44,016 nucleotides of DNA from positions 1-44,016 of the IMG/VR virus record IMGVR_UViG_3300049489_000410; one strand, given 5' to 3'. Shown one piece after another: positions 1 through 44,016 of the stretch; position 1 is the stretch's first letter, and the number at the start of each line of letters is the position of its first letter. The DNA comes from a virus. Below the pieces are notes generated by a model, which saw nothing but the letters and a program-made list of their open reading frames with translations, was not told the origin of the DNA and did not search any database. Made by a program: the position numbers and the translations under genes.

Positions 1-127
1 AGCCGCCACCTTTTGCAAGCTCTGGCTTCAGTGCTGGGTCCATGAACTCATAAGCTCGACGGACGATGCGGAATAGTTTTTCGATACCATCCTGCTCATG
101 CGCGAGAATGCAGGCGTTTTTGTTTTT
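1..127. repeat. Terminal 127-bp direct repeat, left copy (circular contig overlap)
   Basis: Bases 1-127 are identical to 43890-44016. The repeat lies inside the terminase large subunit gene, whose reading frame continues perfectly through the junction when the ends are joined. An exact overlap of 127 bases is what a de Bruijn assembler with k=127 leaves on a circular contig, so I read it as an assembly overlap and not a biological terminal repeat. It implies a circular map of 43,889 bp, consistent with a circularly permuted or cohesive-ended genome. Confidence 0.93.
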
Positions 128-343
128 GCTGAACAGCACAAAGTCCAATTGCCGCAGAAGCTCATTCGTTGAGACGCCCATCTGCCGAGCCTTCAATATC
201 CTGCGGCGCTTTGCTGTAACATAGTTAAGTCGGCGCTGCACGGCATTCTGCTTGAACTGCGACCGCTTCCCCGCCTTATCCACGATGAAATAGCAGTGGT
301 TCAATCGGTACTCGGCATCAAGGAGCGGGCTATTGTCCACCAT
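1..343 (-). CDS. terL: Terminase large subunit, N-terminal part (gene spans the contig ends)
   Basis: This is the first part of the DNA-packaging motor ATPase. The ATG is at 343-341 and overlaps the end of the small terminase gene by 14 bp, which is usual for TerS-TerL pairs. Residues 51-59 read KARQMGVST, the Walker-A-like segment of large terminases. The frame runs off base 1 and continues at 43889, because bases 1-127 repeat at the other end. The joined gene (343 to 1, then 43889 to 42742) encodes 496 residues, a normal TerL length. Only residues 1-114 are encoded in this piece. Confidence 0.92.
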   Translation of the reverse strand, partial: MVDNSPLLDAEYRLNHCYFIVDKAGKRSQFKQNAVQRRLNYVTAKRRRILKARQMGVSTNELLRQLDFVLFSKNKNACILAHEQDGIEKLFRIVRRAYEFMDPALKPELAKGGG

Positions 344-722
344 TCTCTAGCTTTTCAATAATGGCATCGTGCAGGTTTCGTATCGTTGTATTATTGTCCA
401 CCTGAATCTTATCCGTGACTTTCCCAATGGTTCGCTCCAGCAATAGATTCAGCCGTGCAATATCGCCATGCTGAATGGCCAGGACCAGGAGCTTGATAAC
501 CACAAGGTCAATGGCTGGAGTCGATGGGTCAGCCATTATCACGCGCAACCGCTCAATCGGAGCATCCATGTATTTGTAGATGATCCCCTCAAACTTCGAG
601 GCATTCATCAGGCGAGCTTCTTTCACTTCAGGCGGCAATGCCCGACTGGACTTTTTACCACCTGCTATGGCCCTTGGGTCGCCTTTTTTGAATGATGCTG
701 GAGTAGCTTTACCCTTTGCCAT
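330..722 (-). CDS. terS: Terminase small subunit-like protein
   Basis: A 130-residue protein directly upstream of TerL and overlapping its start. The N-terminus has the 'FKKGDPRAIAGGKK' style that opens many phage small terminases and related DNA-binding proteins (DUF5681-like). The C-terminal half is helical, with 'LNLLLERTIGKVTDKI', a segment common in such proteins. The small subunit recognises the packaging site and regulates TerL. The assignment rests mainly on position, size and N-terminal pattern; I see no clear helix-turn-helix. Confidence 0.75.
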   Translation of the reverse strand: MAKGKATPASFKKGDPRAIAGGKKSSRALPPEVKEARLMNASKFEGIIYKYMDAPIERLRVIMADPSTPAIDLVVIKLLVLAIQHGDIARLNLLLERTIGKVTDKIQVDNNTTIRNLHDAIIEKLENGGQ

Positions 723-751: not shown

Positions 752-827
752 TGGAGCGTATCGGTCGGACTTTCACCGCCCCTTTCACCATGGAATGATG
801 ACGTGCCAGATTCAACACTAGATACGC
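752..827 (-). tRNA. tRNA-Gly(UCC)-like gene, non-canonical elbow
   Basis: On the minus strand, 827-752 folds as a 76-nt cloverleaf. The acceptor is a perfect 7-bp helix (GCGTATC with GATACGC). The D arm has GTGT paired to GCAC with one wobble. The anticodon stem TCATC/GGTGA has one wobble and encloses the loop ATTCCAT, giving anticodon UCC after U33. The T-region stem GGGCGG/CCGACC has one mismatch. The gene-encoded tail is U73-CCA; U73 is typical of bacterial glycine tRNAs. The D loop lacks GG and the T loop is TGAAAGT, not TTCRANY, so the usual D-T loop contact is missing. It lies 3 nt after the tRNA-like gene at 831-892. It may supply GGA decoding for the glycine-rich fibres. Confidence 0.62.
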
Positions 828-830
828 AAA

Positions 831-892
831 TGGTGGAGCAACCTAGACTCGAACTAGGAGAGAATTGCTTCCCTGGCCCCTCGCCTCGCCCC
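831..892 (-). ncRNA. tRNA-Ala-like / tmRNA-like truncated RNA with CCA end
   Basis: On the minus strand, 892-831 gives a 62-nt tRNA-like RNA. The acceptor GGGGCGA pairs with TTGCTCC through all seven positions, including a G3-U70 wobble, the alanine identity pair, with A73 and an encoded CCA. The T arm is perfect: CCTAG, loop TTCGAGT, CTAGG. In place of normal D and anticodon arms there are only 27 nt, which can form a small GGC/GCC hairpin and a 6-bp AGGGAA/TTCTCT helix closed by a GCAA tetraloop. No 7-nt anticodon loop can be drawn. It could be a decayed tRNA gene or a functional tRNA mimic. It lies between a Mom-like gene and tRNA-Gly, upstream of TerS. Confidence 0.55.
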
Positions 893-905
893 ATTTTTAA
901 AAAAA

Positions 906-1583
906 CTAAACCCACGACTGGTCCCTTCTGAAGATTTCACTGTCCTTTGGAAAAGGCAAGCACTTAGGTTCCATTTTCCGTCTTACTGCTTTGTCCAATG
1001 GATAGAAATAATAATACCGCTTCGTTTTTAGTAGCTTCCCTGGTCCGTAAACAAATGCAGCCTTTTCCTCTTTGCTCTTTAATTCCTTTGGAGCTTTGCC
1101 GAAGCGTAGAACGTTTATTATGTTTTTGTATTCCCCGCTATCGGTTAGATAGAAATCTTCGCATGGCTCGCAGCCCAGGTACATGAACCCGCTGGACTGA
1201 TAAACTATTCCGCAATCGTTCTTGCAGCCACCAGCATAGGTCCAGACTATTTTAATCTTTTCGTAATGGTCTTTTATCATTTTCATAACAAGCGAAATAG
1301 TTTTACTCTCTGCGTTATGACCAAGGTCATCGCTGATCCACATTCGCTGCATTTCAAGTATGTTTTCCGGTTCGCACTTTGGAAAGAGCTTTGCCTTTGC
1401 GTCCGTTCCAGTGCTTCTGCCAAACACTAAGATGCCCTTCACTCCCTTTAGCTGCGGGTGGAAAATACCGAAGGCAAGCAGGGCTCCGCTTGGAGCAGTT
1501 TTCATATAGTGATACATCTTGCAGAGCCTTTTGGCTCCCTGCATGTCTATTGGCCTTATTTCAATTAAATTGATATCAACCAC
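906..1583 (-). CDS. Mom-like DNA adenine modification protein, second copy
   Basis: A 225-residue protein related in layout to its upstream neighbour (1576-2226). Both share an HY motif near the N-terminus, then 'GxF...LKGVKGILVFG', a 'LEMQRMW' or 'IELNRMA' segment, and 'G-x-IYQSSGF-x-LG'. These are hallmarks of the Mom family, GNAT-fold enzymes that in phage Mu convert adenine to a methylcarbamoylated form and so protect DNA from restriction. I place the start at GTG 1583, because AAGGGG lies 6 nt upstream and the upstream stop overlaps here; an earlier TTG at 1613 is possible. The family call is from remembered motifs only; the copy is more divergent than its neighbour. Confidence 0.6.
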   Translation of the reverse strand: MVDINLIEIRPIDMQGAKRLCKMYHYMKTAPSGALLAFGIFHPQLKGVKGILVFGRSTGTDAKAKLFPKCEPENILEMQRMWISDDLGHNAESKTISLVMKMIKDHYEKIKIVWTYAGGCKNDCGIVYQSSGFMYLGCEPCEDFYLTDSGEYKNIINVLRFGKAPKELKSKEEKAAFVYGPGKLLKTKRYYYFYPLDKAVRRKMEPKCLPFPKDSEIFRRDQSWV

Positions 1584-2226
1584 GTTTCTGCCCCTTATAC
1601 ATGCCAGCGCCAATTTCTAGAATTTTATCGAATGGAATGACCGGAGCCGTGAGTCGTTTTTCTGCTTCTGGGTTCAGGAAATAAATATACTTCAACTGAA
1701 AACCCTTTAGGGCTTCCCAGGTCCTGAACTCATTGCTGATCTTTAGGTGATGCGCCTGGATGATATGAATTTTTTCACCAGTCTTTGGATTCGTTCTTAG
1801 AGACGAGTTGGTTGCTATGCCTACCAGCTTGAAATTGCTGGCCCTGTAAATCGTTCCATCGCCGCACTGCGTTGCATCAGCAAAGCTAATCACCCATTCA
1901 ATGTGTGGATAGGATTTTTTGATTAGACGAAGGCACACTCCGATCACTCGGCTTTCGCTGTATTTGGGAAGTGATTCGTGGAAGGCCATGCGATTAAGCT
2001 CGATGAATCCGTTCCATTTGGTTCCGCTAACAAGATTGATGGTGCCTTTTTTATTGATGCTTGGACCAAACTGAAGGACGCCGTAGCAGAGGTCTTTGAA
2101 AAAGACTCCAAAGTGTAGCTGGCTGTTTGGAACGACCTTGCCGCTGTAATGCCACTTCTTGACCAGGTTATTGGCATCGGTAGCAGAACTTGGCTTTACG
2201 ATAAGGTCTTTAGGCTTGATCTGCAT
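1576..2226 (-). CDS. Mom-like DNA adenine modification protein (GNAT fold)
   Basis: 216 residues. Visible Mom-family features in order: 'VKKWHYSGK' at about 23-31, 'FGVF' then 'YGVLQFG' at about 39-54, 'ELNRMAF' at about 76-82, a 'SFADATQCGDGTIYRASNF' segment at about 114-132. In Mu the homologue modifies adenine in phage DNA using acetyl-CoA-derived chemistry and defeats host restriction. The ATG at 2226 overlaps the end of the ParB-like gene by 17 bp, so the three genes ParB, Mom, Mom are co-translated. The gene lies late in the minus transcript just before packaging genes, as expected for a modification applied before packaging. Confidence 0.68.
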   Translation of the reverse strand: MQIKPKDLIVKPSSATDANNLVKKWHYSGKVVPNSQLHFGVFFKDLCYGVLQFGPSINKKGTINLVSGTKWNGFIELNRMAFHESLPKYSESRVIGVCLRLIKKSYPHIEWVISFADATQCGDGTIYRASNFKLVGIATNSSLRTNPKTGEKIHIIQAHHLKISNEFRTWEALKGFQLKYIYFLNPEAEKRLTAPVIPFDKILEIGAGMYKGQKRG

Positions 2227-2830
2227 TCAAATACCACTCACATATTCTGGCAATAGCGTTGCCATTTTTGTTCGTGTTCACTGTTTCGTCAAAATTCCCC
2301 TGCTCAATTGCCTTATCGAGAGCGTTTTTGACTTCCGTTGCCTGGTCCTTGTGCAAGGTGAACGTGATCTGTTCAAGTTCTGACTTTTCAGCATCCGAAA
2401 GCTCCGGTATTGCGATTGAACTTACATCAATGCTGAAATCTTTTATTCCCAACATATCAATATCAAAATCCGGACCAAGGTCCTGAATGTCCATATTGAT
2501 TCCACTGAAATCTAAGTCGGCCCAGGTCGCAATCGCGTTGTCAGATTGTAGGAAAGCGTATTCCTGATCTTCGTTTTCGAATTCCTGGTACACCACCGGA
2601 ATATCTTTCATCCCAGCCTGTTGTTCAGCTAGCAGAGTCCCATGGCCCTTCACAATAAAGCCTGAACTCTTTGAAACAACAACAGGAGCGCGAACGCCTT
2701 GGTATTTGATAATCTTTTCAAGACGATCAACTTGATCCTGCGGGTGTTTGTTTCTGTTTTTTGGATGCGGCTTCAGATTTTTTACTGAAACGAGTTCATC
2801 GTACTTGCAATGAATTGCAATATCGCTCAT
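2210..2830 (-). CDS. ParB/sulfiredoxin-domain protein
   Basis: 206 residues from ATG 2830, chosen because GAGGAGTAAAAAA precedes it; an upstream in-frame start at 2845 lacks such a site. Residues about 12-90 form a ParB/Srx nuclease-like domain: 'NLKPHPKNRNKHPQDQVDRL', then 'GVRAPVVVSKSSGFIVKGHG' and 'IPVVYQEFENEDQEYAF'. In phages this family often accompanies DNA modification genes and TerS. Here it sits directly upstream of two Mom-like genes. The C-terminal half is acidic, with no recognised helix-turn-helix. A near-perfect chromosomal-type parS palindrome lies 61 bp upstream of its start (2891-2906), so autoregulation is possible. Confidence 0.78.
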   Translation of the reverse strand: MSDIAIHCKYDELVSVKNLKPHPKNRNKHPQDQVDRLEKIIKYQGVRAPVVVSKSSGFIVKGHGTLLAEQQAGMKDIPVVYQEFENEDQEYAFLQSDNAIATWADLDFSGINMDIQDLGPDFDIDMLGIKDFSIDVSSIAIPELSDAEKSELEQITFTLHKDQATEVKNALDKAIEQGNFDETVNTNKNGNAIARICEWYLNADQA

Positions 2831-2890
2831 TTTTTTACTCCTCAAGTTTGTCCACTGCGTTAACGCTAAAACTAGACCATGATATCAGCA

Positions 2891-2914: not shown

Positions 2915-3619
2915 CTAAACGAGTTTTCCTATCCAGCGGCCTTTTTTGTTCATCACCAGGGGAATAAGGCGCGGCCACCCGTCAATTATCATCATGCTTC
3001 CAATGATCGGGCGTTTCAGGTTTGTATTGTTGTAGCTCATAGCCAAGCTGTGATCGTTCACCAAGCAGCCAGTAAAGGCTTGCCAGTACAATCCAAGGGA
3101 ATTGCCCCAATAGTTTATCGAGAACTTTTCGTGAAAATGGCCCTGTACGGACGACATGCCCATCGACTGCGATAGCTTTAATGGGTCGGATGTTTTCCCA
3201 TGGTGAAAATAAACAAACGATCCATTGGATAATTTGAGCGTCAAATCAAAGTGCCAGCGCCATTCTTTTGGCGCTCCTAGAACATCACGGAATGATTTAA
3301 AGACATGGCGCGGCAATCCGTGAGCCTTTCCTTTTCTGAAAACAAGAGAGCCGTGATTGGATTCGATTAAATCCATCTTAGGAAATAGTCTGTATAGCGG
3401 TTGCAGCTTTTGAATTGCTGACTTCAATTCATCCCCTGGGGATAGCAAATCTGGGTCAGCGCCATGGAAGCTGATCGCATGATAGTCCACTTCGTCGCCG
3501 ATCTGAATAATTCTGTCAGGCCTGTAAACTTTTTTGATTTCACGAAGGAAGGCTATCGTATCTAAATGATGATACGGAACATGTATATCGCCAATGACAA
3601 GAACTCTAGAGTTTGCCAT
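2915..3619 (-). CDS. Calcineurin-like metallophosphoesterase
   Basis: 234 residues with the full set of metallophosphoesterase motifs: GDIH at 10-13, GDEVD at 41-45, SNHG at 87-90 (the GNHE position), HHG at 139-141 and GHFH at 160-163. These bind a two-metal centre that cleaves phosphodiester or phosphomonoester bonds. Similar proteins occur in phage genomes as nucleotide or DNA-end phosphatases; the substrate cannot be told here. It is cytoplasmic, with no signal peptide. It lies in the minus transcript between a LuxR-type regulator and the ParB/Mom module. Confidence 0.85.
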   Translation of the reverse strand: MANSRVLVIGDIHVPYHHLDTIAFLREIKKVYRPDRIIQIGDEVDYHAISFHGADPDLLSPGDELKSAIQKLQPLYRLFPKMDLIESNHGSLVFRKGKAHGLPRHVFKSFRDVLGAPKEWRWHFDLTLKLSNGSFVYFHHGKTSDPLKLSQSMGMSSVQGHFHEKFSINYWGNSLGLYWQAFTGCLVNDHSLAMSYNNTNLKRPIIGSMMIIDGWPRLIPLVMNKKGRWIGKLV

Positions 3620-3646
3620 TAAAATATTCCACCATGCTGAAAGTGG

Positions 3647-4833: not shown

Positions 4834-5780
4834 ACGGCCACCTCGCTCATCACAAAATCAAAGGCTTTCTTGTTCTGCGCTGCTTGTGTGCCATTGAACC
4901 ATAGGCCATTCAAGCGCGTTTCTGCGCTGTTTCCCGCCTCATGCGTTAGGTACTGGGTGGCCGCATTGTATAGCGCCCATCCTGTGCCCTTTACGCCGCG
5001 AGCGTCGTTGCCATAGCCTGTTTCAAAGAGCTTTGTTATTTCCCTTGTCATATTGTCCAGTCGGGTCTGGGCACGTTCCTGGTCCGCTGTATTGTAGCCG
5101 AATACCACTTTTACGAATTGCTCCAAGGTTCGCTTGTTCACGCGAAGGCGAAGCATCGCTCTGTATTGTTCAGCCGTTGCCTCAAAGGATTGATTCGCCG
5201 CATCCATGCTCTGCTGCACAAGGTCCAATGCATCGTTTACTTTTGACGAATGCGTGATCCTAATTTGTTTCGAGTGATGATGCTCATCGGCCATGCGTAA
5301 GGTATTGGCGCAGACTACGCGAATGGGAGTAAAGCCAACCCTTACTGCCGATCTGCCATCATGGCCATTGGATAACAAAATGTATTTATTCACTAAGTCG
5401 TCCTTCGCGATCATCATCGGGTCCCTGTTGAGCCTTGCCAATATGAAAATCCGCTGGCCTTTGTTCAAGCTGCCAGCCGTTTCCATTGTTGCTTGCCCTT
5501 GTTCTAAAAACTTATTGAAAAACTCAAAGGCTTTTATGTTCTGCACTGGGGTCCAGTTCTTTCCGACCACTCCGAGAATTGATTTGTCCAAGTCTCGCAC
5601 CACGGCCATTTCTGGAGCCAGGACGCCATCTTTTGTGAACAGCTCCTTTTTTTCAACGCTCCAGTCCAGGCCCGCAATTTTGATTGCTTCCTGCACATTG
5701 GGCGCTTCGGTTACTATTTTCCCCAGGCCATGCCAGGGCACTTCTTTTACTGAGAACATATTTTCTACATTGTGAGCCAT
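4830..5780 (-). CDS. DUF932 phage/plasmid-like protein
   Basis: 316 residues. The opening 'WHGLGKIVTEAPNVQEAIKIAGL' pattern, the 'GVVGKNWTPVQN' segment (about 88-99) and 'FEFFNKFLEQGQATMETAGSL' style middle are typical of the DUF932 / TIGR03299 family, present in many phages and plasmids and near DNA metabolism genes. Its biochemical role is unknown. ATG 5780 is preceded by AACCAAGGAG (5796-5787), the ribosome-site variant shared by early genes here. It is the largest gene in the early minus block. Confidence 0.88.
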   Translation of the reverse strand: MAHNVENMFSVKEVPWHGLGKIVTEAPNVQEAIKIAGLDWSVEKKELFTKDGVLAPEMAVVRDLDKSILGVVGKNWTPVQNIKAFEFFNKFLEQGQATMETAGSLNKGQRIFILARLNRDPMMIAKDDLVNKYILLSNGHDGRSAVRVGFTPIRVVCANTLRMADEHHHSKQIRITHSSKVNDALDLVQQSMDAANQSFEATAEQYRAMLRLRVNKRTLEQFVKVVFGYNTADQERAQTRLDNMTREITKLFETGYGNDARGVKGTGWALYNAATQYLTHEAGNSAETRLNGLWFNGTQAAQNKKAFDFVMSEVAV

Positions 5781-6508: not shown

Positions 6509-7207
6509 ATGGCCAAAAGATACACCGACAGCGAGAAATGGAAAAACCCGTGGTTCCGAAAACTGCCAAGCCCATATCGGTGGCTTTGGGTCTATATTCT
6601 AGATTCATGCTCACATGCTGGCGTCTGGCGAGTTGACTTTGATCTTGCTGCGTTTTCAATAAATGAGCATGTAAACCAGCGTGAAGCCGAGCTTCTTTTT
6701 GCGGGAAAAATAAAGTTTATCGACCACGACAAATGGTTTATTCCATCATTCATCGAATTTCAGTACGGAAAGTTAAATTATCAGAACAGGGTCCACAAGT
6801 CAGTAATTGATTCGCTTCTTCATCTCAACGTAGATATTTCTGGGGATAACTATGGGGATAAGAAGGGGCATGCTAGGCCCTGCGATGGAGCTAAAGACAA
6901 AGATAAAGACCAAGAGAAAGAAAAAGACCAAGAGAAAGAAGAAGACAAAGATAAAGATAAAGACATGTGGTTCGATGATCCCGATCTTTATGAAAACGAT
7001 CTGGTTGCGATTCATGCGGCGATAAAAAGATTTGGAAGGTACAACGGCGCACAAGCTAAAGAATATCTGAAGCCCAGGCGGTGGAAGCATATCGAATTAC
7101 TTGGTGGCTGGACGCACGTCTGCGGGCTTGACCAAAAGAAACTGAACTTTTTGATGATCAACAAAGTGTTCCGGAGAAAACATGAATCGACCATCCAAAA
7201 AGATTAA
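6509..7207 (+). CDS. DnaD-like replisome organiser / replication initiation protein
   Basis: 232 residues from ATG 6509 (CCAAGGAA 8 nt upstream). The first ~100 residues have the pattern 'KWKNPWFRKLPSPYRWLWVYILD' followed by 'HAGVWRVDFDLAAFSI', which is typical of winged-helix N-terminal domains of phage replication initiators that bind the origin and help load helicase. Residues about 125-155 are a low-complexity linker of Lys, Asp, Glu and Gln, then a C-terminal helical part. No helicase gene follows, so host helicase is likely recruited. First gene of the plus operon. Confidence 0.7.
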   Translation: MAKRYTDSEKWKNPWFRKLPSPYRWLWVYILDSCSHAGVWRVDFDLAAFSINEHVNQREAELLFAGKIKFIDHDKWFIPSFIEFQYGKLNYQNRVHKSVIDSLLHLNVDISGDNYGDKKGHARPCDGAKDKDKDQEKEKDQEKEEDKDKDKDMWFDDPDLYENDLVAIHAAIKRFGRYNGAQAKEYLKPRRWKHIELLGGWTHVCGLDQKKLNFLMINKVFRRKHESTIQKD

Positions 7208-7682
7208 ATGTCGGTGCGGTGTCTTTTTCAGCGTTTCAGATTTGCTGAAACAAAACATTGTCGGCTTTTGCAGCTCTGAATGTCGTGACGCTGCGGCAAA
7301 TCAACGGGCCATGATAAAGAAAAACAAAAAGTTTTTTCACCGGAATCGCGCACGGCAGCAAAAAAAGAAAAATAATGCGGTACGGCAAAACTTTCGGTCA
7401 AAAGAATCATCCGAAAAGTACAGGCTGTCAGCCGAAACCTTCTATAAATCGCCAGAATGGCTCAGGTTGCGTTTAAAAATTTTGGTTGTGCATGGACATA
7501 GATGCGCCTCATGTGGCAATACAGCGCAAAATACGACGTTACACGTTGACCACATAAAACCACGGTTGACGCACCCAGAATTGGAGCTTGATGAAAACAA
7601 CCTTCAGGTTTTGTGCAAAGACTGCAATCTGGGTAAGGGAGCGTCTTTTACGTTTGATTTTAGAAATAGTTCGATTAAATAG
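7182..7682 (+). CDS. HNH endonuclease
   Basis: 166 residues. The C-terminal ~60 residues form an HNH domain: CASCG near 115-119, 'LHVDHIKPRLTHPELELDEN' with the central DH, then 'NLQVLCKDCN' with the zinc-binding CxxC. The N-terminus carries another cysteine cluster (CRCG...CSSEC) and a very basic middle, suggesting a zinc-ribbon DNA-binding part. It overlaps the end of the replication gene by 26 bp. It may be a homing nuclease or serve recombination or packaging; its place among replication genes is the only hint. Confidence 0.85.
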   Translation: MNRPSKKIKCRCGVFFSVSDLLKQNIVGFCSSECRDAAANQRAMIKKNKKFFHRNRARQQKKKNNAVRQNFRSKESSEKYRLSAETFYKSPEWLRLRLKILVVHGHRCASCGNTAQNTTLHVDHIKPRLTHPELELDENNLQVLCKDCNLGKGASFTFDFRNSSIK

Positions 7683-7703
7683 ACCAAAACCAAGGAGAAC
7701 CAA

Positions 7704-8522
7704 ATGGACTTACCGAGCAGCAATGCGAAACTATTTTCTGCGCTCTGCCAGTTTCAGAGCAAAGTGAAATCAATCCCGAAGACTGGGAATAACCCGCACT
7801 TTCGATCCAGCTACGCCGAACTAGATGTGGCTTGCAATTATCTGTTTCCATTACTTTCTGCTTCTGGGCTTTCAGTCACGCAGCTTGCCTATGTGAACGG
7901 CGAATGGCTGATGTTGAAAACAGTCCTGGCGCATGTTTCAGGTGAGAAGGTTGAAAGCGAATGGCCAGTTGTGAAGATGGGCGCAAAGCCGCAGGAGATA
8001 GGCTCAGCGACTTCCTATGCGCGACGCTACTCTTTGTTTGCAATAACGGGATTGACCGCAGAGCTTGAGGATGATGATGCAGAAGTGGCCACCAACAGAT
8101 CGGCACCTGCGCCAAGGCCAGCACCAAAAAACTATGCACCGCAGCCACAAGCCGCGCCATCGACCACCGCAGCAGAAGTTCCAATGCCGCCATCACAGGG
8201 GCCATCCCATGCCGGGCTTTCTTTGAAGCAAGTCAATCGCATGTATGCCATTGCAAAGGCCAACAAATGGCCCGTGGCTTTTGTCCAGGCCTATGTGAAA
8301 CAGACCTACAAAGCCATACCGGAAAAGCTCTCAAGGCAAGCCTACGAACAGGCTTGCGATTACTTCGCCAACGCCATCTTTGACGACTCGATGAAGTCCA
8401 TATTGAAAGATTCTGTTCCTTCGGTTACAGAACAATTTGAAAAGGCGAAAAAATCCTACGTCGATCATACCAAGGAGCCATCAGCACCGCAGTTCAATGA
8501 CGATGAACCATTACCATGTTAA
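7704..8522 (+). CDS. erf: ERF-family single-strand annealing protein
   Basis: 272 residues. The first ~130 residues match the ERF superfamily: 'FSALCQFQSKVKSIPKTGNN' then 'FRSSYAELDVACNYLFPLLSASGL', 'KMGAKPQEIGSATSYARRYSL' and 'GLTAELEDDDAE'. ERF proteins anneal complementary single strands for phage recombination and genome circularisation. A proline/alanine-rich linker (about 135-170) leads to a helical C-terminal part and an acidic tip ending DDEPLPC, a form that could bind single-strand binding protein. AACCAAGGAG lies 6 nt before the ATG. It works with the Gp157 and DUF1064 proteins downstream. Confidence 0.88.
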   Translation: MDLPSSNAKLFSALCQFQSKVKSIPKTGNNPHFRSSYAELDVACNYLFPLLSASGLSVTQLAYVNGEWLMLKTVLAHVSGEKVESEWPVVKMGAKPQEIGSATSYARRYSLFAITGLTAELEDDDAEVATNRSAPAPRPAPKNYAPQPQAAPSTTAAEVPMPPSQGPSHAGLSLKQVNRMYAIAKANKWPVAFVQAYVKQTYKAIPEKLSRQAYEQACDYFANAIFDDSMKSILKDSVPSVTEQFEKAKKSYVDHTKEPSAPQFNDDEPLPC

Positions 8523-8549: not shown

Positions 8550-8960
8550 ATGGGAAGAAAAAAGAGAACAAGACGGCCATATACAGCACAGGAAATAGCG
8601 AACATCTATTACTGGAAATATGGTCTTGGAAAATCAAACAAGCAAATATCGAAAGTCGTGAGCAGAACAAGTGACGCACTGAATGCTCTGCGGCATCACA
8701 TTGACCATGACGCAATGGAATACAGAAGCCCGCTCAAAAAAGAACCGATTTATTTTGGCGACCTTGCTAGGCAAGATTTTCCTTCTGTAAAGGAAATTGC
8801 AGCTGCGAAAAAAGAGAAAGAGCTTTCAGTTGAGCCAAATCTTTTTGAGCAAGACTGCAAGGGCCATCAGCTTACCGATGTCCAGGGCCTTATCCTTCAT
8901 CTGACAGAAGCGAACATTGACCGCAGCCTTAAACTTAGGCTTATCGGTGAACTGCTATGA
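8550..8960 (+). CDS. Hypothetical protein with HTH-like N-terminus, 136 aa
   Basis: 136 residues. The N-terminus is very basic (GRKKRTRRPY) and followed by helices 'TAQEIANIYYWKYGLGKSNKQISKVVSRT' in pattern with a helix-turn-helix of the Myb/HTH type, so DNA binding is plausible. The C-terminal part 'LTDVQGLILHLTEANIDRSL' is helical. AACCAAGGAG precedes the ATG by 6 nt. The stop overlaps the next start (ATGA), so it is coupled to Gp157. No family named with confidence. Confidence 0.65.
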   Translation: MGRKKRTRRPYTAQEIANIYYWKYGLGKSNKQISKVVSRTSDALNALRHHIDHDAMEYRSPLKKEPIYFGDLARQDFPSVKEIAAAKKEKELSVEPNLFEQDCKGHQLTDVQGLILHLTEANIDRSLKLRLIGELL

Positions 8961-15175: not shown

Positions 15176-16039
15176 ATGAATATAATTTCCGGCAGCCAAG
15201 GGTTCATCGGGTCGCACCTTTACGATGCGGTCATAAATCCACTTGGAATCGACAAGCGTGATACCAAGCGTCAACAGAACTGGATTCCAGTCGATCTTCT
15301 AAGCAAGAACGAACTGTTCTGGGTTCTTCGCGACCATAAAATTGAATATGTTTATCACCTTGCGGCAGTGCCATCGGTGCCAGACAGCTATGCGAATCCA
15401 ATGGCGACATACCTGAATAACGTCAACGCGAGCTTGAACCTTATTGATGTCTGCAAAAAGCTCGACGTAAAGAAAATGATTTTCGCCTCTAGCAGTTCGG
15501 TCAAAGGAACCTCACCATATGGCCACAGCAAGAAAATAATCGAAGAAGCACTTCAAAACTGCGGCCTTCAGTTCACCACGCTTCGATTCTTCAATGTATT
15601 CGGGCCACGGCAAAGGTCCAATGTGGTCAAAATAATGTACGATAAAATCAAAGCCAATGAGGAAGTGGTCATCTTTGGCGACGGGAAAACCACCAGGGAC
15701 TTCACTTATGTCGATAACGTGGTGAAGGCATGCCTGAAGGCGACGCATCATCAATACAATGGCGAAACATTGGAAGTGGGAACAGGCGAACCGCATACAC
15801 TTTTGGACCTTTACGAGGCGATCAGGTCTAGGGTAAATCCGAAGCACAACAAATTGAGCTTTAAGCCTGACCGAATCGGTGATATTCGATTTTCAAAGGC
15901 ACGAACATTTCTCGATAACAGTGAGATCATTAACTTTGAACAGGGGATAGACAAATGGCTACGATTGGAGTCATCGGCGCAGGTTTTGTTGGGGGAACGC
16001 TTGCAAAGTGGTTCGCAGAATTTACCACTCATGTGGTGA
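15176..16039 (+). CDS. NAD-dependent sugar-nucleotide epimerase/dehydratase (extended SDR)
   Basis: 287 residues. GSQGFIG at 6-12 is the nucleotide-binding glycine motif, HLAAVPSVPDSY near 61-72 and SSSS at 105-108 plus YxxxK at 115-119 (YGHSK) are the catalytic triad region, and 'LRFFNVFGPRQR' is typical of UDP-glucose/UDP-glucuronate 4-epimerases. It likely interconverts UDP-sugars for the polymerase upstream. The last ~28 codons overlap the next gene and are not conserved-looking; the domain ends near 'GIDKWLRLE'. Confidence 0.85.
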   Translation: MNIISGSQGFIGSHLYDAVINPLGIDKRDTKRQQNWIPVDLLSKNELFWVLRDHKIEYVYHLAAVPSVPDSYANPMATYLNNVNASLNLIDVCKKLDVKKMIFASSSSVKGTSPYGHSKKIIEEALQNCGLQFTTLRFFNVFGPRQRSNVVKIMYDKIKANEEVVIFGDGKTTRDFTYVDNVVKACLKATHHQYNGETLEVGTGEPHTLLDLYEAIRSRVNPKHNKLSFKPDRIGDIRFSKARTFLDNSEIINFEQGIDKWLRLESSAQVLLGERLQSGSQNLPLMW

Positions 16040-17736
16040 AAGTTTACGATCCAGGCAAGCAAAGATTTGACGACCTGTCAGACTGCCTTGCGACATTCAT
16101 ATGCGTACCTGTTATGAATAACCAGGATGACTTTGGCCAGGACCTTTCGATTCTCGAAGAATCAATTCAGCGAGCTGGCGGGATAAAGTTTATTCGCTCG
16201 ACCGTGATGGTCGGGACAAATGATACTTACATGACATTCTCATGCCCTGAATTTCTGACTGAAAGAACTGCATATGAGGACCTTTGTAATATGCCAATCA
16301 TGACAGGATGTTCTGACCTAGGTCTTATGTCTGAGATTTTTCCAGGGAAAGAATTTCTTGTGATGACAAATAAGGAATGCGAAATGGCGAAGTACGCCCA
16401 TAACGTATTCGGCGCGATGAAAGTGAACTTCTTCAACAATATCTATCAGCTCTGCAAGAAGGAAGAAATTGACTTCAACATGGTCCGTGAAGGCGTCCTT
16501 ATGAGCGGATACATCAACGATGTGCATACTCAAGTCCCTGGTCCAGATGGCAAGTTTGGCTTCGGTGGAAAGTGCGTTCATCCAGATACTAGGATTTTGA
16601 AGCCAGACTCTACATGCTATGCTCACGAGCTAAAAGTTGGCGACGCAGTTATCGATAGCGAGTCCGTTACAACGATCACCAAGATTGGCAATCGGATATC
16701 AGAATTTCCAATACAAATAAAATCGAAGGGACGAAGGCTGACCGCAAGCCACGATCACATTCACTTCGTCTATGAAAACGACGATCTAAAGGAGGTTACA
16801 TTCGATCAAATCAAGCCTGGCGATTATGTATTTGTTAAGCGGCCAGTAATTGACGGACTTTCTTCTGTGTACCTAGGGCCAAAGCCAAATAATTACATAA
16901 AGGTATGGCACGAAAAGATTGAACTAAATCATAAGCTGGCGAGGGTTATGGGTCTTTATTCGGCTGATGGATGTATGTCTAACGATAAATACTCAACGAT
17001 ATGGGCATTGGGAACAAAGAAAGAACATCTTGCCGACGAGATCATTGAAACTCTTTCTGAATATGGATTACACGCGACCAAAAGGTATGCAGAAACTGAA
17101 GGAACCTATGGCCTGTCGAAGTGTTTTATTGTTCGATGCAGATCGCAGTGGCTTCAAACGCTATTCGATAAAGCAGATCTAGGCCGTGGAGCTTTCAATA
17201 AATCTTGCAAGCTATTCTCTGGCGATGTGGCATTAGGTTTTATTTCTGGGTGGCTTGATGGCGATGGATGTATCAATCAACAAACTGTTTCAGGATATTC
17301 GCGAAGCAAAGTTTTAATATCAAATATTGATACGATGCTCCTGTCTCTTGGCATATGTGCATCAATTAAAAACAATGGCGAAGAAATAAGAATAAGCTGC
17401 CGCGAAGATGTAGAAAAGATTTTAAAATATACTAAACGATTGTCTGGGTCGAAGCTGTACTACAAAAGAAACAGTTCCTACAAGTCGCCAAATACAATAA
17501 ACCTACCAAATGGATGGGCCACTAAGGTCAAGGAAGTAAAGTATTTGGATCCGACAGAGGTTATTTCAATAGAAACAGAAAGCCATACCTACGTCGCAAA
17601 CAACATGCTAACACACAACTGCTTTCCAAAGGACCTCCATGCATTCTATACGAAATATCCGCTGCTAAGTTTCGCCTCGGTTATCAAGGAGAATGGCGAG
17701 CATCGCTTTCGGCCAACTCAGGAATTGGAAGATTAG
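15955..17736 (+). CDS. UDP-glucose/GDP-mannose dehydrogenase-like protein interrupted by an intein
   Basis: 593 codons: extein residues 1-206 and 556-593 around a 349-residue intein. The extein starts with the Rossmann motif GAGFVGG, has 'FIRSTVMVGT', 'CPEFLTERTAYEDL', 'EMAKYAHNVFGAMKVNFFNN' and, after splicing, 'GFGGKCFPKDLHAFY', the family's catalytic cysteine motif. Splicing gives 244 residues, far short of the usual ~400-450: the C-terminal UDP-binding domain is missing, as the frame stops 38 residues after the active site. It would oxidise a UDP-sugar to a uronic acid if active. Starts inside the epimerase gene; its 3' end overlaps the convergent methyltransferase gene by 53 bp. Confidence 0.85.
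   Translation: MATIGVIGAGFVGGTLAKWFAEFTTHVVKVYDPGKQRFDDLSDCLATFICVPVMNNQDDFGQDLSILEESIQRAGGIKFIRSTVMVGTNDTYMTFSCPEFLTERTAYEDLCNMPIMTGCSDLGLMSEIFPGKEFLVMTNKECEMAKYAHNVFGAMKVNFFNNIYQLCKKEEIDFNMVREGVLMSGYINDVHTQVPGPDGKFGFGGKCVHPDTRILKPDSTCYAHELKVGDAVIDSESVTTITKIGNRISEFPIQIKSKGRRLTASHDHIHFVYENDDLKEVTFDQIKPGDYVFVKRPVIDGLSSVYLGPKPNNYIKVWHEKIELNHKLARVMGLYSADGCMSNDKYSTIWALGTKKEHLADEIIETLSEYGLHATKRYAETEGTYGLSKCFIVRCRSQWLQTLFDKADLGRGAFNKSCKLFSGDVALGFISGWLDGDGCINQQTVSGYSRSKVLISNIDTMLLSLGICASIKNNGEEIRISCREDVEKILKYTKRLSGSKLYYKRNSSYKSPNTINLPNGWATKVKEVKYLDPTEVISIETESHTYVANNMLTHNCFPKDLHAFYTKYPLLSFASVIKENGEHRFRPTQELED
16573..17619 (+). mobile_element. Class 1 intein with LAGLIDADG homing endonuclease
   Basis: 349 residues, from Cys (TGC 16573) to Asn (AAC 17617-17619), followed by Cys +1. 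Block A is CVHPDTRILKPD, block B has TASHDH, the two endonuclease motifs are GLYSADGC and GWLDGDGC, block F is 'VISIETESHTYVANNM' and block G is LTHN then C. All splice-site residues (Cys1, His penultimate, Asn last, Cys +1) are present, so it looks active. It sits exactly before the catalytic cysteine of the dehydrogenase, a conserved site favoured by inteins. The DNA looks more AT-rich than its exteins. Confidence 0.93.
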
Positions 17737-19006
17737 CTTCATCTGCGTATATCCATGTGAGCGCCTGTGAAAGGCTTTCGCTGGATACGTTCAAAAGAAA
17801 TCTAAGCGTGTTAACTGACTTCGCGTAAAGCTCTGACTTTTTCTTTTGATCCTGCTCTTTCATGGCCTTCATGCGATAGCAGTTGGCAATTCCCATGAGC
17901 ATTTGTGGACTGTTCGGCTTCTTTTTCAGGCCACGCGACAGCACTTCAAACGCCTCGTCATACCTCTCATAACGGGTCAGAATATCGGCCACATAAAGGC
18001 TCGCGTCTGAACTGTTCGGACAAGCGTCGAGCGTTGCCTGAAGGTATTTGTTCGTCTCTTCGCGGCTCTTATGGAACTCAGAGCGATTGTATTCGTAATG
18101 ATTGACCCAAGCAGTTGGTAGGTTTGGCCAGACTTCGATTGCTTCTTTGCACTTGTTTTCCTGCAAGAGCTTCCAGGCTTTGAATATCTTTTCAATATCC
18201 CTTTTGTACTTTGCCGCATCGAAGGTCTTTTTTTCATAAGGCTTGGTCGCCTTTTTCAGGATGTAGGTGTTCCCATAAACCTCTGTATTTCGCATGATGA
18301 TCTCAAGGCCAGCCTTTGCAATCACTTCTTCAAGATGTTCTTCTGACCAAGCGTTAATGTGATCCGGTGCCCAGTACCATTCAATGTCGAATCCAGCGCC
18401 GCCACTATTTGAAAGCTCACGAAACCAGATCGGGCATGACAAATAGAATATTCCGTTGTCCTTCAAACAAGCTGCGTATTCTTTCAGCCGCTTATCTGGG
18501 TCAAGCTGATGCTCAAGAACATGATATGAAATCATAAGGTCGTATTTTTTTGTCATATCCAGATCGTCAGTCAGCCGAAGTCCATACTCATGGAATGCCA
18601 CCCGCTTATATGTCGTGGTCAATTCAGTACCATGCACCTCTGCGCCTGGGACCTGCTGGCGAATCCAGTTAAGAAGCATGCCATAGGCTGAGCCGATTTC
18701 GCCGATGACTGGATTTTCCAGGCCTGCTTTTTCCCATTTTTCAAATAGCGGGGTCAAAAAGAAATTGTGGTATTGCAGCTTGCGCTCGCCCGTGAACAGA
18801 GCCGTCGCCTGTGGAGCCGTCCGGTAGCTAGAACGATAATGCTCTTTAATCTCTTCTTCAGATTGGTACTTGGAAGGGTATGAAACAAAGCCGCACTCAT
18901 CGCATTGGCACATGTTGATCGGCTTACCCTTATCGTCTACCTTGCGAAGGCGAAATTGATCTACGTTCGTCCACTTATTATCTGCATCACACACAGCGCA
19001 GCGCAT
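17684..19006 (-). CDS. Zinc-ribbon class I SAM methyltransferase with C-terminal TPR-like helices
   Basis: 440 residues. The N-terminus has C3/C6 and C35/C38, a zinc-ribbon as in sugar C-methyltransferases of glycan clusters. IGEIGSAYG (101-109) is the SAM-binding loop, 'YDLMISYHVLEHQLDPDKRL' the post-loop motif of Methyltransf_23. From about 280 on there are helical repeats ('ASLYVADILTRYERYDEAFE', then 'PNSPQMLMGIANCYRMKAM'), like tetratricopeptide repeats. It probably methylates a sugar or sugar chain. It is the last gene of the minus sugar cassette and touches the DAHP-synthase-like gene (one-base overlap at 19006). Confidence 0.8.
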   Translation of the reverse strand: MRCAVCDADNKWTNVDQFRLRKVDDKGKPINMCQCDECGFVSYPSKYQSEEEIKEHYRSSYRTAPQATALFTGERKLQYHNFFLTPLFEKWEKAGLENPVIGEIGSAYGMLLNWIRQQVPGAEVHGTELTTTYKRVAFHEYGLRLTDDLDMTKKYDLMISYHVLEHQLDPDKRLKEYAACLKDNGIFYLSCPIWFRELSNSGGAGFDIEWYWAPDHINAWSEEHLEEVIAKAGLEIIMRNTEVYGNTYILKKATKPYEKKTFDAAKYKRDIEKIFKAWKLLQENKCKEAIEVWPNLPTAWVNHYEYNRSEFHKSREETNKYLQATLDACPNSSDASLYVADILTRYERYDEAFEVLSRGLKKKPNSPQMLMGIANCYRMKAMKEQDQKKKSELYAKSVNTLRFLLNVSSESLSQALTWIYADEANLPIPELAESDARHSP

Positions 19007-19812
19007 TATAATACCTCTCTGATTTTTTTGATTTTTTTTGTCAGCAATTGAAATTCCACATAGCTAAGCGCCTGGTCTGGGTCTGAAAGGCTCATATCTG
19101 GGCATGGATGCGTTTCCACGAGGCACCCATCCGCTCCTGCGGCTATTCCAGCCAGCGTCATAGGAGCCACAAGGTCGCGCCGTCCAGTGCCATGCGAGCC
19201 ATCGACAAGCACAGGGATGCTAGTGATCTGCTTGATGGCCGGAATCATGCTAATCGACAAATCCCATCGGACATGGTTCGCATGCGTAGAGGAACCACGT
19301 TCGATCAAGTAAATCTCTTTACATCCCCATTTCAGAACATGCTCTGCGGCACCAAGCCATTCGTCCAATGTCGCGCCTGGATGACGCTTCAAAAATACAG
19401 GCTTTCCCGCCTGGCCGACTTCCTTGAGCAGGGTATAGTTCTGCATCTGTCGGCATCCGACTTGAAAGCAGCTCGCGTATTGAAGAAGGCTTGGAATAAC
19501 TCGATAATCCAGAACCTCAATGATATTCTTCAGTCCATGTTGCGTGGCAGCGGCATGATAAGCAGCGATCAGCGCCTCGTCGATCCACCCGAAGTTCTCG
19601 CCTGGGTAGGTGCCAGCACGGAATACCCCACCGCGCAGATGCGTGGCTCCTTGGGATGAAACGAACCCAGCCAAGTCAAATATCTGCTCACGGGATTCTA
19701 CCGAGCATGGGCCAGCGATGAAGGTGAAGTCATTATTTGGCCGCACATAATCAACGACTCTTTGGTAGCGCGGCTTCGGTCCCCACTGTCTGCGGAAATC
19801 AAATTCTTCCAT
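19006..19812 (-). CDS. DAHP synthase-family (type I-beta) PEP aldolase-like enzyme, divergent
   Basis: 268 residues. Matches the DAHP/KDO8P synthase fold: GPCSVES at 34-40, RGG at 60-62, 'QVGCRQMQNYTLLKEVG' at 117-133, ERG at 171-173 and 'GSHGTGRRDLV' at 205-215. The metal ligands Cys36, His207, Glu233 and Asp244 are in place. But the family's KPRTSP loop reads RAGTYP here, KRG reads KRH, and DPSH reads DGSH, so the sugar-phosphate site is changed. It would join PEP to some aldose to give a 3-deoxy-ulosonic acid; the substrate need not be erythrose 4-phosphate. It lies among sugar activation and transfer genes, not aromatic amino acid genes. Confidence 0.85.
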   Translation of the reverse strand: MEEFDFRRQWGPKPRYQRVVDYVRPNNDFTFIAGPCSVESREQIFDLAGFVSSQGATHLRGGVFRAGTYPGENFGWIDEALIAAYHAAATQHGLKNIIEVLDYRVIPSLLQYASCFQVGCRQMQNYTLLKEVGQAGKPVFLKRHPGATLDEWLGAAEHVLKWGCKEIYLIERGSSTHANHVRWDLSISMIPAIKQITSIPVLVDGSHGTGRRDLVAPMTLAGIAAGADGCLVETHPCPDMSLSDPDQALSYVEFQLLTKKIKKIREVL

Positions 19813-19820
19813 GTTGTCCT

Positions 19821-20192
19821 TTAGAAATTACTCTTCATAAGGAAAGCCTCGAACTCATTGTCGAGCTTTCGTTTTAGTTCCCTTGCTTGCTGAACATATT
19901 TAGCTGGTTCCTTCGCAGGGTCAAGCAGCGGAGCTTTGAATCGTTTTCGGTAAAGAAACTTCGCGCACTTTTCAATATCACGGCATCGCTTCATCACCCA
20001 AAGGTCCAGCTTGTCGTCCTTAATCCCACGCGCCACAGCTTCAGCAAGGCCAGCCTGTAGGCCATAACGCCACGCCATGAGCTTTTCGATGTTGTCAGAC
20101 TTCACGGCCTTACGCAGAACGGTTTCCCAATGGTCAAGTGTGAGCGTAGCGTACATGTTAACGACGTCGAGACTTGGGTGCTTTCGTGCCAT
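19821..20192 (-). CDS. Hypothetical protein, 123 aa
   Basis: 123 residues, helical and basic ('KCAKFLYRKRFKAPLLDPAKEP', 'QQARELKRKLDNEFEAFLM'). No family recognised. Its start lies inside the end of the SpsF/GT2 gene (35-bp overlap) and its stop is 8 bp before the next gene, so it is a full member of the sugar operon. Confidence 0.6.
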   Translation of the reverse strand: MARKHPSLDVVNMYATLTLDHWETVLRKAVKSDNIEKLMAWRYGLQAGLAEAVARGIKDDKLDLWVMKRCRDIEKCAKFLYRKRFKAPLLDPAKEPAKYVQQARELKRKLDNEFEAFLMKSNF

Positions 20193-21498
20193 ATTTACTT
20201 TCGATTATTCTGCGCGTTTTCTCGCGGTCTGAAAGGTTCGTTTTCGACATGGATTCGTTGTGCTGGCGGTAGCAGAAAATAGCACGGTCGTAATACCCTA
20301 TTTTGAGGATGTCCCGCGCACGAAGAAAAATATCAAGAGAATCATGATTCCGTAGATTATCAGTGAACTTAATATGATTGATAGCCGAGGTCCTAAAAAG
20401 CGAGCCACCAACATGATGACGTTCATCGCCTTTTTGAATGGTCCGCTGGCTGAGTCCTGCGTAGCAATTTGGATAGATGACATCAACTTCCTGCTCTTCA
20501 ATCTGCTTGACCATGCCATCAATGGCAGTCTTTCCGATAAAAAAATCATCACCGTCAAGACGAACAATGTACTTTCCACGGGCATTTTTAAGAGCAATGT
20601 TTGAACTACTCGCAAGCCCGACATTAGTCTCGTTACGAATGAATCTAGCATTTTTATTCCCCTGGCAGAACTTGGCCATGTGCAATAATGTTTTGTCGTC
20701 CGAATGATCGTCGATCAAAATATACTCATAATCCCTAAAGTTATTCTGCAAAGCGACCGATGACATCGCCTCTTGAATCCATTTTCCCGCGTTCTTCGCG
20801 CATGTGTAAACGGTAACCTGTGGCAGTTTGTTCATCTGCTTCAGAACAGGATGGCCATCGAAAAGTCGGACCACATCTTTGAGCGAAGCGTTCACGCCAA
20901 GGGTTGCGTAGATAACCCGCATGAGCTGGGTGTCTTCAAAGAAGTCGATCAGGAGTCGGATGTCTTTTCTTGGCTGTTCGAAACGATAGTTAACAGATCT
21001 GTTCGTGACGGCTTTGATGGCGTAGCTGATATGTTCGACTCTCGAGAATTGTCGCGCAGCTCGCTCAAGAGCGTCCATGCTAAATATTTCAAAGCCAGAT
21101 CCAGGGACAAAATCAGAACTAAATAAATAATCGAGTTTTCCATCAGACATCAAGCGTAGCATAGGTTCTAGCTGATCAGTATCCACGAAAATCTTGTCAT
21201 GTGTGATGCGAATTATTCGCTTCAGTCCATGCTTTTTCGCACACTCATACTGCCGAGCGAGCGGGTCGTCCTCAAAGCCGACGAAGAAATTGAGCTTTGG
21301 AAATATGTCCAAAAGGAACCCGTAATGGACAAGCTCCGATTCTGGCACGGCTAAGAATACCGGATAGCCCATCTTGTAAACTTGACCAAGCAGCAATTCG
21401 ATTTGCGTCTTGCCGTTGTATTTCAAGAGCGGTTTAGCGGGCACCCGCGAGGAGCTAAGGCGAGAACAAATGATTACTCCAGTGTCTACGATTGCCAT
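20158..21498 (-). CDS. Fusion: SpsF/KdsB-like cytidylyltransferase + GT2 glycosyltransferase
   Basis: 446 residues, two domains. Residues 1-~215 resemble SpsF/CMP-sugar synthetases: R13-x2-S-x-R18-x-P20-x-K22 (nucleotide-binding loop), 'GFEDDPLARQYECAKKHGL' and 'IIRITHDKIFVDTDQ'. Residues 227-446 are a GT2 domain: 'VTVYTCAKNAGKWIQEAM', DDHSDD at 263-268, 'RNETNVGLASSSNIAL' and DGDD at 315-318 for metal and donor binding. One polypeptide could thus activate a sugar acid with CTP and transfer it. No membrane span. It overlaps its neighbours by 13 and 35 bp within the operon. Confidence 0.78.
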   Translation of the reverse strand: MAIVDTGVIICSRLSSSRVPAKPLLKYNGKTQIELLLGQVYKMGYPVFLAVPESELVHYGFLLDIFPKLNFFVGFEDDPLARQYECAKKHGLKRIIRITHDKIFVDTDQLEPMLRLMSDGKLDYLFSSDFVPGSGFEIFSMDALERAARQFSRVEHISYAIKAVTNRSVNYRFEQPRKDIRLLIDFFEDTQLMRVIYATLGVNASLKDVVRLFDGHPVLKQMNKLPQVTVYTCAKNAGKWIQEAMSSVALQNNFRDYEYILIDDHSDDKTLLHMAKFCQGNKNARFIRNETNVGLASSSNIALKNARGKYIVRLDGDDFFIGKTAIDGMVKQIEEQEVDVIYPNCYAGLSQRTIQKGDERHHVGGSLFRTSAINHIKFTDNLRNHDSLDIFLRARDILKIGYYDRAIFCYRQHNESMSKTNLSDREKTRRIIESKYGTKAPKSRRR

Positions 21499-42741: not shown

Positions 42742-44016
42742 CTAAATTTTGATCTTACTTGCAGCATTATCGTAGATTGATAGCTTCCCTTCTTCAATAC
42801 TCATCTGGACGGCGATACATGCTGCCATAACCAAGTCGTCGTGCTTTCCTTCTTCTGCTTCGATCTTGCCGTCATTGTTGATAAGGGTCAGGCATTCCCC
42901 AAGGGTTTCGCGGTCATTGAGCTTGATGGTGCCGTTTTCCACGCCTTCTATAAAAGTGTCGATCATTATCGGCCTGGTCACGCGATCCGTGATCCATCCC
43001 AGTCGCATCTCTTTGATGTCTGATTTTTTTTCTTCTTTGTAAGTCTTGAAAATGTTCGGGTATTCCAAAACCTCATCGAGCTTGAGCAAAACAGAATGCC
43101 CGTGATTGTTTCGCTCCACGCCGATCAAAGTGCCTGGGTATCTTGTGCCATACATTTCAGCCATCTGGACCAGCTTTTCTGCAAACTCTGACGGCTTCAT
43201 AGTCTTTGAATGGAATGATGCAACTTGCTCGCAACCACGGATGTTGAACACATGCGCGGCGCATGCGTCCCCGCCTACGCCTTCAGCAGTATCAGCGCCG
43301 ATCACATAAATGCCGCCAGGAGATTGCTTCTTGTAAATCCTTATCCCATCCACAACTTCGATGGGCTTAGGCGCGTTATCATACATTGGTTTGATGATTT
43401 CTAAACTAAATGGCGCATTGCCTGATGTGAGAAAGCAGGTCATATCGTCTTCTGGATATTCCTGCTTGAATAGCTGCTTCAATTCACGCTGCTTGAACCT
43501 TCGGAAAGCTATCTGCCCAGGCGTTAGGTCCATCCCGTAGTTGGCCTTCGCGTATTGAATCAAATGCCGCTCATCCTCGCTGTAATCTTTTGGAGTGATT
43601 TCTGCGATGGGTATCGTATATTCCTCATGGAAATACCATGGGAAGAAAATGTTCGTATAATTCGATTCCCCATCCATCCAAGAGTCATAGAAATGATTCA
43701 TCCCGTTCGCTGTGGTTTCCTCAGTGACGATCCCATCCATGGGCACGGCTTCGACAGTCGCATAGACCCGATCAATATCCTCTATGAACGCCTTTTCCGA
43801 TACATGCAGCCAATGGATCGTATCGCCACGGGATGAAAGGTCACAATAGATGCGTGAATTATTTTTGGGGAAGAACATTTCATATTTCGAGCCGCCACCT
43901 TTTGCAAGCTCTGGCTTCAGTGCTGGGTCCATGAACTCATAAGCTCGACGGACGATGCGGAATAGTTTTTCGATACCATCCTGCTCATGCGCGAGAATGC
44001 AGGCGTTTTTGTTTTT
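42742..44016 (-). CDS. terL: Terminase large subunit, C-terminal part (continues across contig end)
   Basis: Residues 73-496 of the terminase whose start is at 343-1. 'HVSEKAFIEDIDRVYATVEA' holds the Walker-B/ISE region, 'TEETTANGMNHF' the motif III coupling segment, and the RuvC-like nuclease centre is seen in 'IYVIGADTAEGVGGDACAAH' (Asp near 314), 'LIGVERNNHGHSVLLKL' and 'GKHDDLVMAA'. It packages and cuts phage DNA. An in-frame Met at 43932 is internal. Bases 43890-44016 duplicate 1-127. Confidence 0.94.
   Translation of the reverse strand, partial: KNKNACILAHEQDGIEKLFRIVRRAYEFMDPALKPELAKGGGSKYEMFFPKNNSRIYCDLSSRGDTIHWLHVSEKAFIEDIDRVYATVEAVPMDGIVTEETTANGMNHFYDSWMDGESNYTNIFFPWYFHEEYTIPIAEITPKDYSEDERHLIQYAKANYGMDLTPGQIAFRRFKQRELKQLFKQEYPEDDMTCFLTSGNAPFSLEIIKPMYDNAPKPIEVVDGIRIYKKQSPGGIYVIGADTAEGVGGDACAAHVFNIRGCEQVASFHSKTMKPSEFAEKLVQMAEMYGTRYPGTLIGVERNNHGHSVLLKLDEVLEYPNIFKTYKEEKKSDIKEMRLGWITDRVTRPIMIDTFIEGVENGTIKLNDRETLGECLTLINNDGKIEAEEGKHDDLVMAACIAVQMSIEEGKLSIYDNAASKIKI
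43890..44016. repeat. Terminal 127-bp direct repeat, right copy
   Basis: Exact copy of bases 1-127; see the left copy. Should be removed once to obtain the circular map of 43,889 bp. Confidence 0.93.

Follow-up and report, generated by a model that had tools for sequence, protein, structure and literature searches.

The product of phage Mu's Mom enzyme is N6-carbamoylmethyl-adenine. FemXAB-type transferases use ordinary tRNAs, with one exception: staphylococci have a non-proteinogenic tRNA-Gly that is reserved for cell-wall glycine. This RNA serves a GNAT-fold transferase and is poor at translation, and it is full-size. As for smaller RNAs, alanine minihelices (laboratory constructs) demonstrate that an acceptor stem and a T arm are enough for alanyl-tRNA synthetase (AlaRS), and armless mitochondrial tRNAs have lost whole arms and still decode. 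Where the acceptor is a peptide or a small molecule, it is established that GNAT-fold enzymes can take amino acids from aminoacyl-tRNA (PMC12945691).

We analyzed a viral sequence of 44,016 nucleotides (the window; positions 1 to 44,016 of IMG/VR record IMGVR_UViG_3300049489_000410). This is the genome of a phage and has genes for terminase, portal, head protease, tape measure and tail fibre. It encodes two adjacent enzymes that belong to the same family as Mu Mom (PF25680, PDB 8bv8) by sequence and by fold, followed by two tRNA-like RNAs. Mu differs in having no adjacent tRNA-like RNA, and its donor is predicted to be acyl-CoA (PMC7824862). The logic that we propose would be shared with FemX, PacB, VlmA and DhpH-C, in which a GNAT fold moves an amino acid from aminoacyl-tRNA to a non-ribosomal acceptor (PMC12945691); in FemXAB-type enzymes, however, the acceptors are peptides or small molecules, not DNA, and there are two GNAT domains. 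In the RNA there is a likeness to the staphylococcal system, where a tRNA-Gly is set aside for a GNAT-fold transferase, but the phage RNAs go further: the glycine type has a bulge in the T stem and is missing U33, and the alanine type has no anticodon arm. In this respect the alanine type resembles the minihelices and the armless mitochondrial tRNAs, as a minimal substrate with lost arms. We think it probable that the RNAs are dedicated, translation-proof aminoacyl donors for DNA modification by Mom, with alanine for Mom2 and glycine for Mom1.

The Mom locus

All the genes of the locus are on the minus strand. In the order in which they are read, they are:

2210..2845, minus strand: ParB/sulfiredoxin-like protein (PF02195), conserved upstream of the Mom genes
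1576..2226, minus strand: Mom1, Mom-family DNA modification protein (PF25680, E = 1.8e-50)
906..1613, minus strand: Mom2, Mom-family GNAT DNA modification protein (PF25680; start codon uncertain)
831..892, minus strand: Ala-like RNA without an anticodon arm (sequence, fold, equivalents after 26 of 27 Mom2 genes, covariation)
752..827, minus strand: tRNA-Gly-like RNA (scanner, covariance model, equivalents at Mom1 loci, covariation)
330..722, minus strand: probable terminase small subunit, by position only
1..341, minus strand: N-terminal part of terminase large subunit, continuing at 44016-42742 across the closed ends

Both Mom proteins pass the gathering score of PF25680 (27.1 bits), Mom2 with 137 bits (E = 8.9e-40) and Mom1 with 171.8. 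Mom1 matches 8bv8 by sequence (E = 2e-28) and is 36% identical to Mu Mom. For Mom2, the best PDB match of a predicted model (mean pLDDT 83) is Mu Mom, 8bv8 (Foldseek E = 1.5e-15). The catalytic serine of 8bv8 (S124), which is the residue mutated in the inactive Mu Mom, aligns with S103 of Mom2 and S92 of Mom1, and it is invariant in both types of protein. A ParB-like gene is beside Mom in most of the loci that have enough upstream sequence.

The product of 330..722 had no PHROG or Pfam match, and a protein search found no relatives. It lies between the RNAs and the terminase large subunit, and in another locus (L003) the gene at this place is annotated as a terminase small subunit. The translation of the large subunit contains the Walker-A-like motif KARQMGVST, and 42742-43932 matches terminase PHROGs.

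A 62-nt RNA without an anticodon arm

The Ala-type RNA is 62 nt long and is read from 892 to 831 on the minus strand: GGGGCGA / GGCGAGGGGCC / AGGGAAGCAAUUCUCU / CCUAG UUCGAGU CUAGG / UUGCUCC / A / CCA. Its parts are:

892-886/841-835, minus strand: acceptor stem, containing G3-U70
885-875, minus strand: D-like hairpin, 3 bp
874-859, minus strand: GCAA hairpin, 6 bp
858-842, minus strand: T arm, canonical (5 bp, 7-nt loop)
834 and 833-831, minus strand: A73 and the encoded CCA

A preliminary description, made from the sequence of the window, had noted that the acceptor stem pairs fully and includes G3-U70, that A73 and CCA are present, that the T arm is canonical, and that the anticodon arm is absent, the middle being 27 nt with a GNRA-capped helix. 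Sequence and fold agree with all of these. The seven acceptor pairs all form (G3-U70 and G6-U67 are wobble pairs), the 27-nt middle consists of the 3-bp D-like hairpin and the 6-bp hairpin with the GCAA cap, and the minimum-energy fold is exactly a three-hairpin cloverleaf, at -24 kcal/mol. Taken alone, the fold is no better than chance (z = -1.1; 31 of 200 shuffles were equally good).

Standard tools do not report this RNA. Neither ARAGORN nor RF00005, the model for decoding tRNAs, matched either RNA of the window, and the Rfam covariance models left 892-831 unmatched even at E ≤ 10. This bears on another suggestion of the preliminary description, that the RNA is akin to the tRNA-like domain of tmRNA. 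The two do share G3-U70, A73, the T arm and the absence of an anticodon arm. However, the Ala-type RNA has no tmRNA D-loop motif and no message, and the tmRNA model (RF00023) does not match it at E ≤ 10, while message-less tmRNA domains from other viral contigs do score with that model. We therefore rejected tmRNA kinship.

Conservation of the Ala-type RNA beside Mom2

The first relative (L002) has a Mom2 that is 55% identical and the same gene order as the window. Its RNA differs in the acceptor and T stems, yet both still pair, and G3-U70, A73 and CCA are kept. A search with Mom2 found 26 loci, and in nearly all of them there is a mini tRNA-like RNA (51-77 nt) directly 3' of the gene.

We also used a scanner that is blind to identity: its sole requirements are a 7-bp acceptor, a T arm and a C after them. 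It found an RNA downstream of 26 of the 27 distinct Mom2 genes, and it had 6 matches, of mixed identities, in 1814 control windows from the same loci. G1-C72, G2-C71, G3-U70 and A73 are present in all 26 of the detected RNAs, so that the identity elements for AlaRS (G3-U70 and A73 on an acceptor-T minihelix) are there without exception. Pairing is one of the scanner's criteria, and pairing of the acceptor and T stem in alignments A4 and A6 was partly demanded by it; what is informative is how often the scanner matched, how varied the pairs are, and that the identity elements are fixed. In acceptor pairs 5-7 and in four pairs of the T stem, both partners vary (covariation score 0.78, vs. 0.17 when shuffled), and acceptor pairs 1-4 are invariant. 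Because an RNA follows 26/27 Mom2 genes but is found in only 6/1814 control windows, and because the covariation is strong, we rejected a chance fold. This comparative evidence surpasses chance by far and confirms, at the level of sequence, that the 62-nt RNA is real.

A DNA pattern that is independent of Mom gave a similar picture. Among the matches listed from viral contigs, 14 have a full acceptor and T stem but no room for an anticodon arm, and all but two of these adjoin Mom2 (12 of 14). (An earlier version of the pattern matched mostly full-size tRNA-Ala.) An exact search of viral contigs with the 3' half of the Ala-type RNA found nothing. Where other relatives have ACCA, some encode ACAA or ACTA, as expected if a CCA-adding enzyme completes the 3' end.

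The preliminary description had proposed to look for compensatory changes in both the acceptor and the GCAA hairpin. They are found in the acceptor (and the T stem). The hairpin is not conserved: relatives have ACAA, AGCG or no hairpin at all, so the GCAA cap does not define this RNA, and we rejected the GNRA hairpin as the functional core. Random decay among relatives, which it had named as an outcome that would refute its reading, is not seen; the stems pair and covary. Its proposal that the RNA is an alanine-accepting mimic that might feed an alanine-dependent process gains support from the sequences: G3-U70 and A73 are invariant, the neighboring pairs covary, and a conserved gene for a GNAT-fold modification enzyme adjoins. 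The first interpretation of 831-892 is partly supported.

A glycine-type RNA beside Mom1

In the RNA at 827-752, the acceptor is GCGTATC/GATACGC, U73 and CCA are present, UCC occupies the anticodon position, and the 3' strand of the T stem has a bulged A (765). We built a covariance model from 44 examples, and it matches this RNA at 2.3e-14 (the sequence itself is among the 44). With this model, Gly-type RNAs are found at 85 of 87 Mom1 loci, of which about 40 were not used in the model. At the other two loci, the contigs end 29 and 42 nt after Mom1. These RNAs covary as well.

The Gly-type RNAs keep G1-C72, C2-G71, U73, C35 and C36, which is the identity set for glycyl-tRNA synthetase (GlyRS) from E. 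coli and Thermus (PMC9976931). The RNA at 752-827 has the full set; the exceptions among its relatives are L308 and L316, which have A73. The scanner demanded NCC for the model set, and both NCC and the T-stem bulge are also present in covariance-model matches outside that set. The bulge is in 44/44 of the model's RNAs and U33 in only 20/44. Some relatives just pass RF00005 (29.5 and 30.5 bits vs. 29), and some are recognized by ARAGORN.

Mom1 often occurs without Mom2, and in all 52 Mom1-only loci, the Gly RNA is present and the Ala RNA is absent. Psychrobacter phage vB_PmaS_Y8A, for example, has Mom1 alone, two Gly-type RNAs, and no Ala-type RNA. In over a dozen loci, the Gly RNA is on the opposite strand from Mom1 with its position unchanged (L315, L324, L325, L327, L329, L333, L334, L335, L340, L365, L377, L378, L029 and L030). 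Those RNAs adjoin or overlap the 3' end of Mom1, and being on the opposite strand, they must have their own promoter. For both types, the existence of the RNAs, their conservation, their covariation and their identity elements are direct observations.

A third clade, and the Mom tree

At six loci, the Mom2-like protein belongs to a separate, third clade, and an RNA of 64-67 nt follows it. These RNAs have G73, a D-like arm, a hairpin that resembles a variable arm, and a T arm, and they have no anticodon arm. Because of G73 and the extra hairpin, they are probably of a seryl type, which is the least certain of our assignments. In one of them (L364), the third pair is G-U.

On a tree of Mom proteins, the labels Gly, Ala, Ser and none require three changes, as few as four groups allow. 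The proteins of the Ser clade fall within the Ala type, and the sister group of the Gly clade consists of Mu Mom and two relatives (SH-aLRT 89). As far as the sequences allow the RNAs to be typed, Mom clade and RNA type are paired one-to-one. There is no such RNA within a few kb of Mom in Mu, JD024, ICP1, Liebe, Riggi, PX29 and the other phages with distant Moms that we sampled, so a dedicated RNA is not required by every Mom. L121 has a canonical tRNA-Ala(TGC) at 5048-5123, with a ferredoxin-like gene before it and a distant Mom-like gene directly after it. It could be a donor RNA or an integration boundary; given the ferredoxin neighbor, it possibly marks the edge of host DNA, and we did not count it.

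A proposed role as aminoacyl donors

The anticodon is ignored by AlaRS and nearly dispensable for SerRS. GlyRS requires C35, C36 and U73 (PMC9976931). Each phage RNA appears to keep roughly what its synthetase reads and to shed what the ribosome requires, namely the anticodon arm (in the Ala type) or U33 and a regular T stem (in the Gly type). Selection for RNAs that are charged but do not decode would have this outcome. And since the type of RNA tracks the clade of the enzyme, the simplest account is that each Mom obtains the amino acid it transfers from its own RNA.

We propose that host enzymes would mature the 62-nt RNA, with the CCA-adding enzyme completing the ends of those that do not encode CCA. 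Host AlaRS would then charge it with alanine, by recognizing G3-U70 and A73 and not an anticodon. Without an anticodon arm the RNA could not decode, so its alanine would be withheld from the ribosome. Mom2 would then place the alanyl group on a base in the phage DNA, probably at N6 of adenine, and the mark would shield the DNA from nucleases before it is packaged. The 827-752 RNA would serve the paralogue Mom1 in the same way, with glycine, and the third clade would probably use a seryl version. We infer the expression and charging of the RNAs, the transfer to DNA and the modified base from these sequence patterns.

Some points count against a tRNA donor: an acyl-CoA such as glycyl-CoA has been predicted as the donor for Mom (PMC7824862), and the nearest non-Mom folds to our model of Mom2 are acetyltransferases that use CoA. 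On the other hand, N6-glycyl-adenine would have the same mass as N6-carbamoylmethyl-adenine, and we infer that it could rearrange to that product if the glycyl amine attacks C6. Mu Mom may draw on the host's glycyl-tRNA, which would settle its donor. In the open-access literature (subscription papers and preprints lie outside it), we found nothing that links Mom or DNA modification with an aminoacyl-tRNA donor.

More broadly, phages probably devote a set of translation-proof tRNA mimics to supplying alanine, glycine or serine to base-modifying Moms, and there is a good chance that this is a new route of DNA modification. If so, DNA would join the few acceptors that receive amino acids from tRNAs, the unsettled question of Mom's donor would be answered, and natural tRNAs that are free of decoding would reveal the bare needs of a synthetase. 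The predicted mass shifts in phage DNA are +57 for glycine, +71 for alanine and +87 for serine, and the glycine shift could be sought at once in the cultured Psychrobacter phage. It would also mean that a whole class of small phage RNAs escapes present annotation of tRNAs and Rfam families.

Alternative explanations

The alternative that survives best is serial addition, which is a variant of the donor role and does not exclude it. Mom1 would place glycine on the base, and Mom2 or the Ser-clade Mom would add alanine or serine to give a dipeptide-like base, much as FemX, FemA and FemB build the cell-wall bridge. Mom2 or the Ser-clade Mom never occurs without Mom1 (35/35 loci), which makes this a live alternative; Mom1 alone is common (52 loci), and the Mom genes are adjacent in one cluster. 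Two independent marks would fit that pattern equally well, and Mom2 retains the catalytic motif of Mom1, which in the Mu paradigm acts on the base. We consider serial addition possible but not the likelier arrangement.

It is much less likely that the RNAs are charged decoys or sponges, which would lower the levels of Ala-tRNA and Gly-tRNA or soak up defence enzymes that target tRNAs, with Mom as a neighbor in a shared anti-defence island. Phages carry tRNAs and decoys, and the identity elements are preserved in these RNAs. But the type of RNA tracks the Mom clade exactly, the short Ala RNAs found by pattern (among the matches listed) almost all adjoin Mom2, and the Gly RNAs remain beside Mom1 even when they are on the opposite strand. 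In particular, sequestration of AlaRS would not explain why Gly-, Ala- and Ser-type RNAs each go with a particular clade of Mom.

Less likely again, the RNAs could be structural punctuation, as cleavage sites or as protection for the 3' end of the mom transcript, with no amino acid involved. Their usual place, right after the stop codon and in the same direction, would suit this, but over a dozen Gly RNAs are on the opposite strand, and invariant G3-U70 and A73, or U73, C35 and C36 in the Gly type, have no role in cleavage. Finally, phage tRNAs often decay, and the shortened shape and the blindness of ARAGORN and Rfam to 892-831 could suggest dying tRNA genes or fragments left by integration (including an attP site), but we give this practically no credence, as it is contradicted by the relatives, with complete pairing and covariation across divergent sequences and a constant position relative to Mom.

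Other observations

Some viral contigs encode true tmRNA-like domains that lack a message. In L090, a 62-nt domain of this kind (8793-8854, minus strand; RF00023, 56 bits) is about 300 nt upstream of a cluster at 6825-8468 (minus strand) that contains ParB-like and ABC-ATPase-like genes along with a weak match to GNAT. This may be a second, unrelated GNAT system with an alanyl donor RNA. Four viral contigs without a Mom match have RNAs of 60-68 nt that score with RF00023 and are missing the message part (L082:7487-7553, L170:157-224, L175:6081-6146 and L100:176-235). The one in L100 also matches permuted tmRNA and may be part of a two-piece tmRNA.

In L002, the Mom2 gene contains an in-frame TAG (3619-3621), and the conserved tail LPFPKxSxxFRRDQxW follows in frame, which could reflect readthrough, recoding or a sequence error. 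In the window itself, weak PHROG matches to UDP-glucose dehydrogenase, a methyltransferase and GtrB are clustered at 15955-21498 and are perhaps involved in modifying host surface glycans. The contig was classed as linear, but the ends of the window are a direct repeat of 127 bases (1-127 and 43890-44016), so it closes into a circle of about 43,889 bp and probably represents a complete genome.
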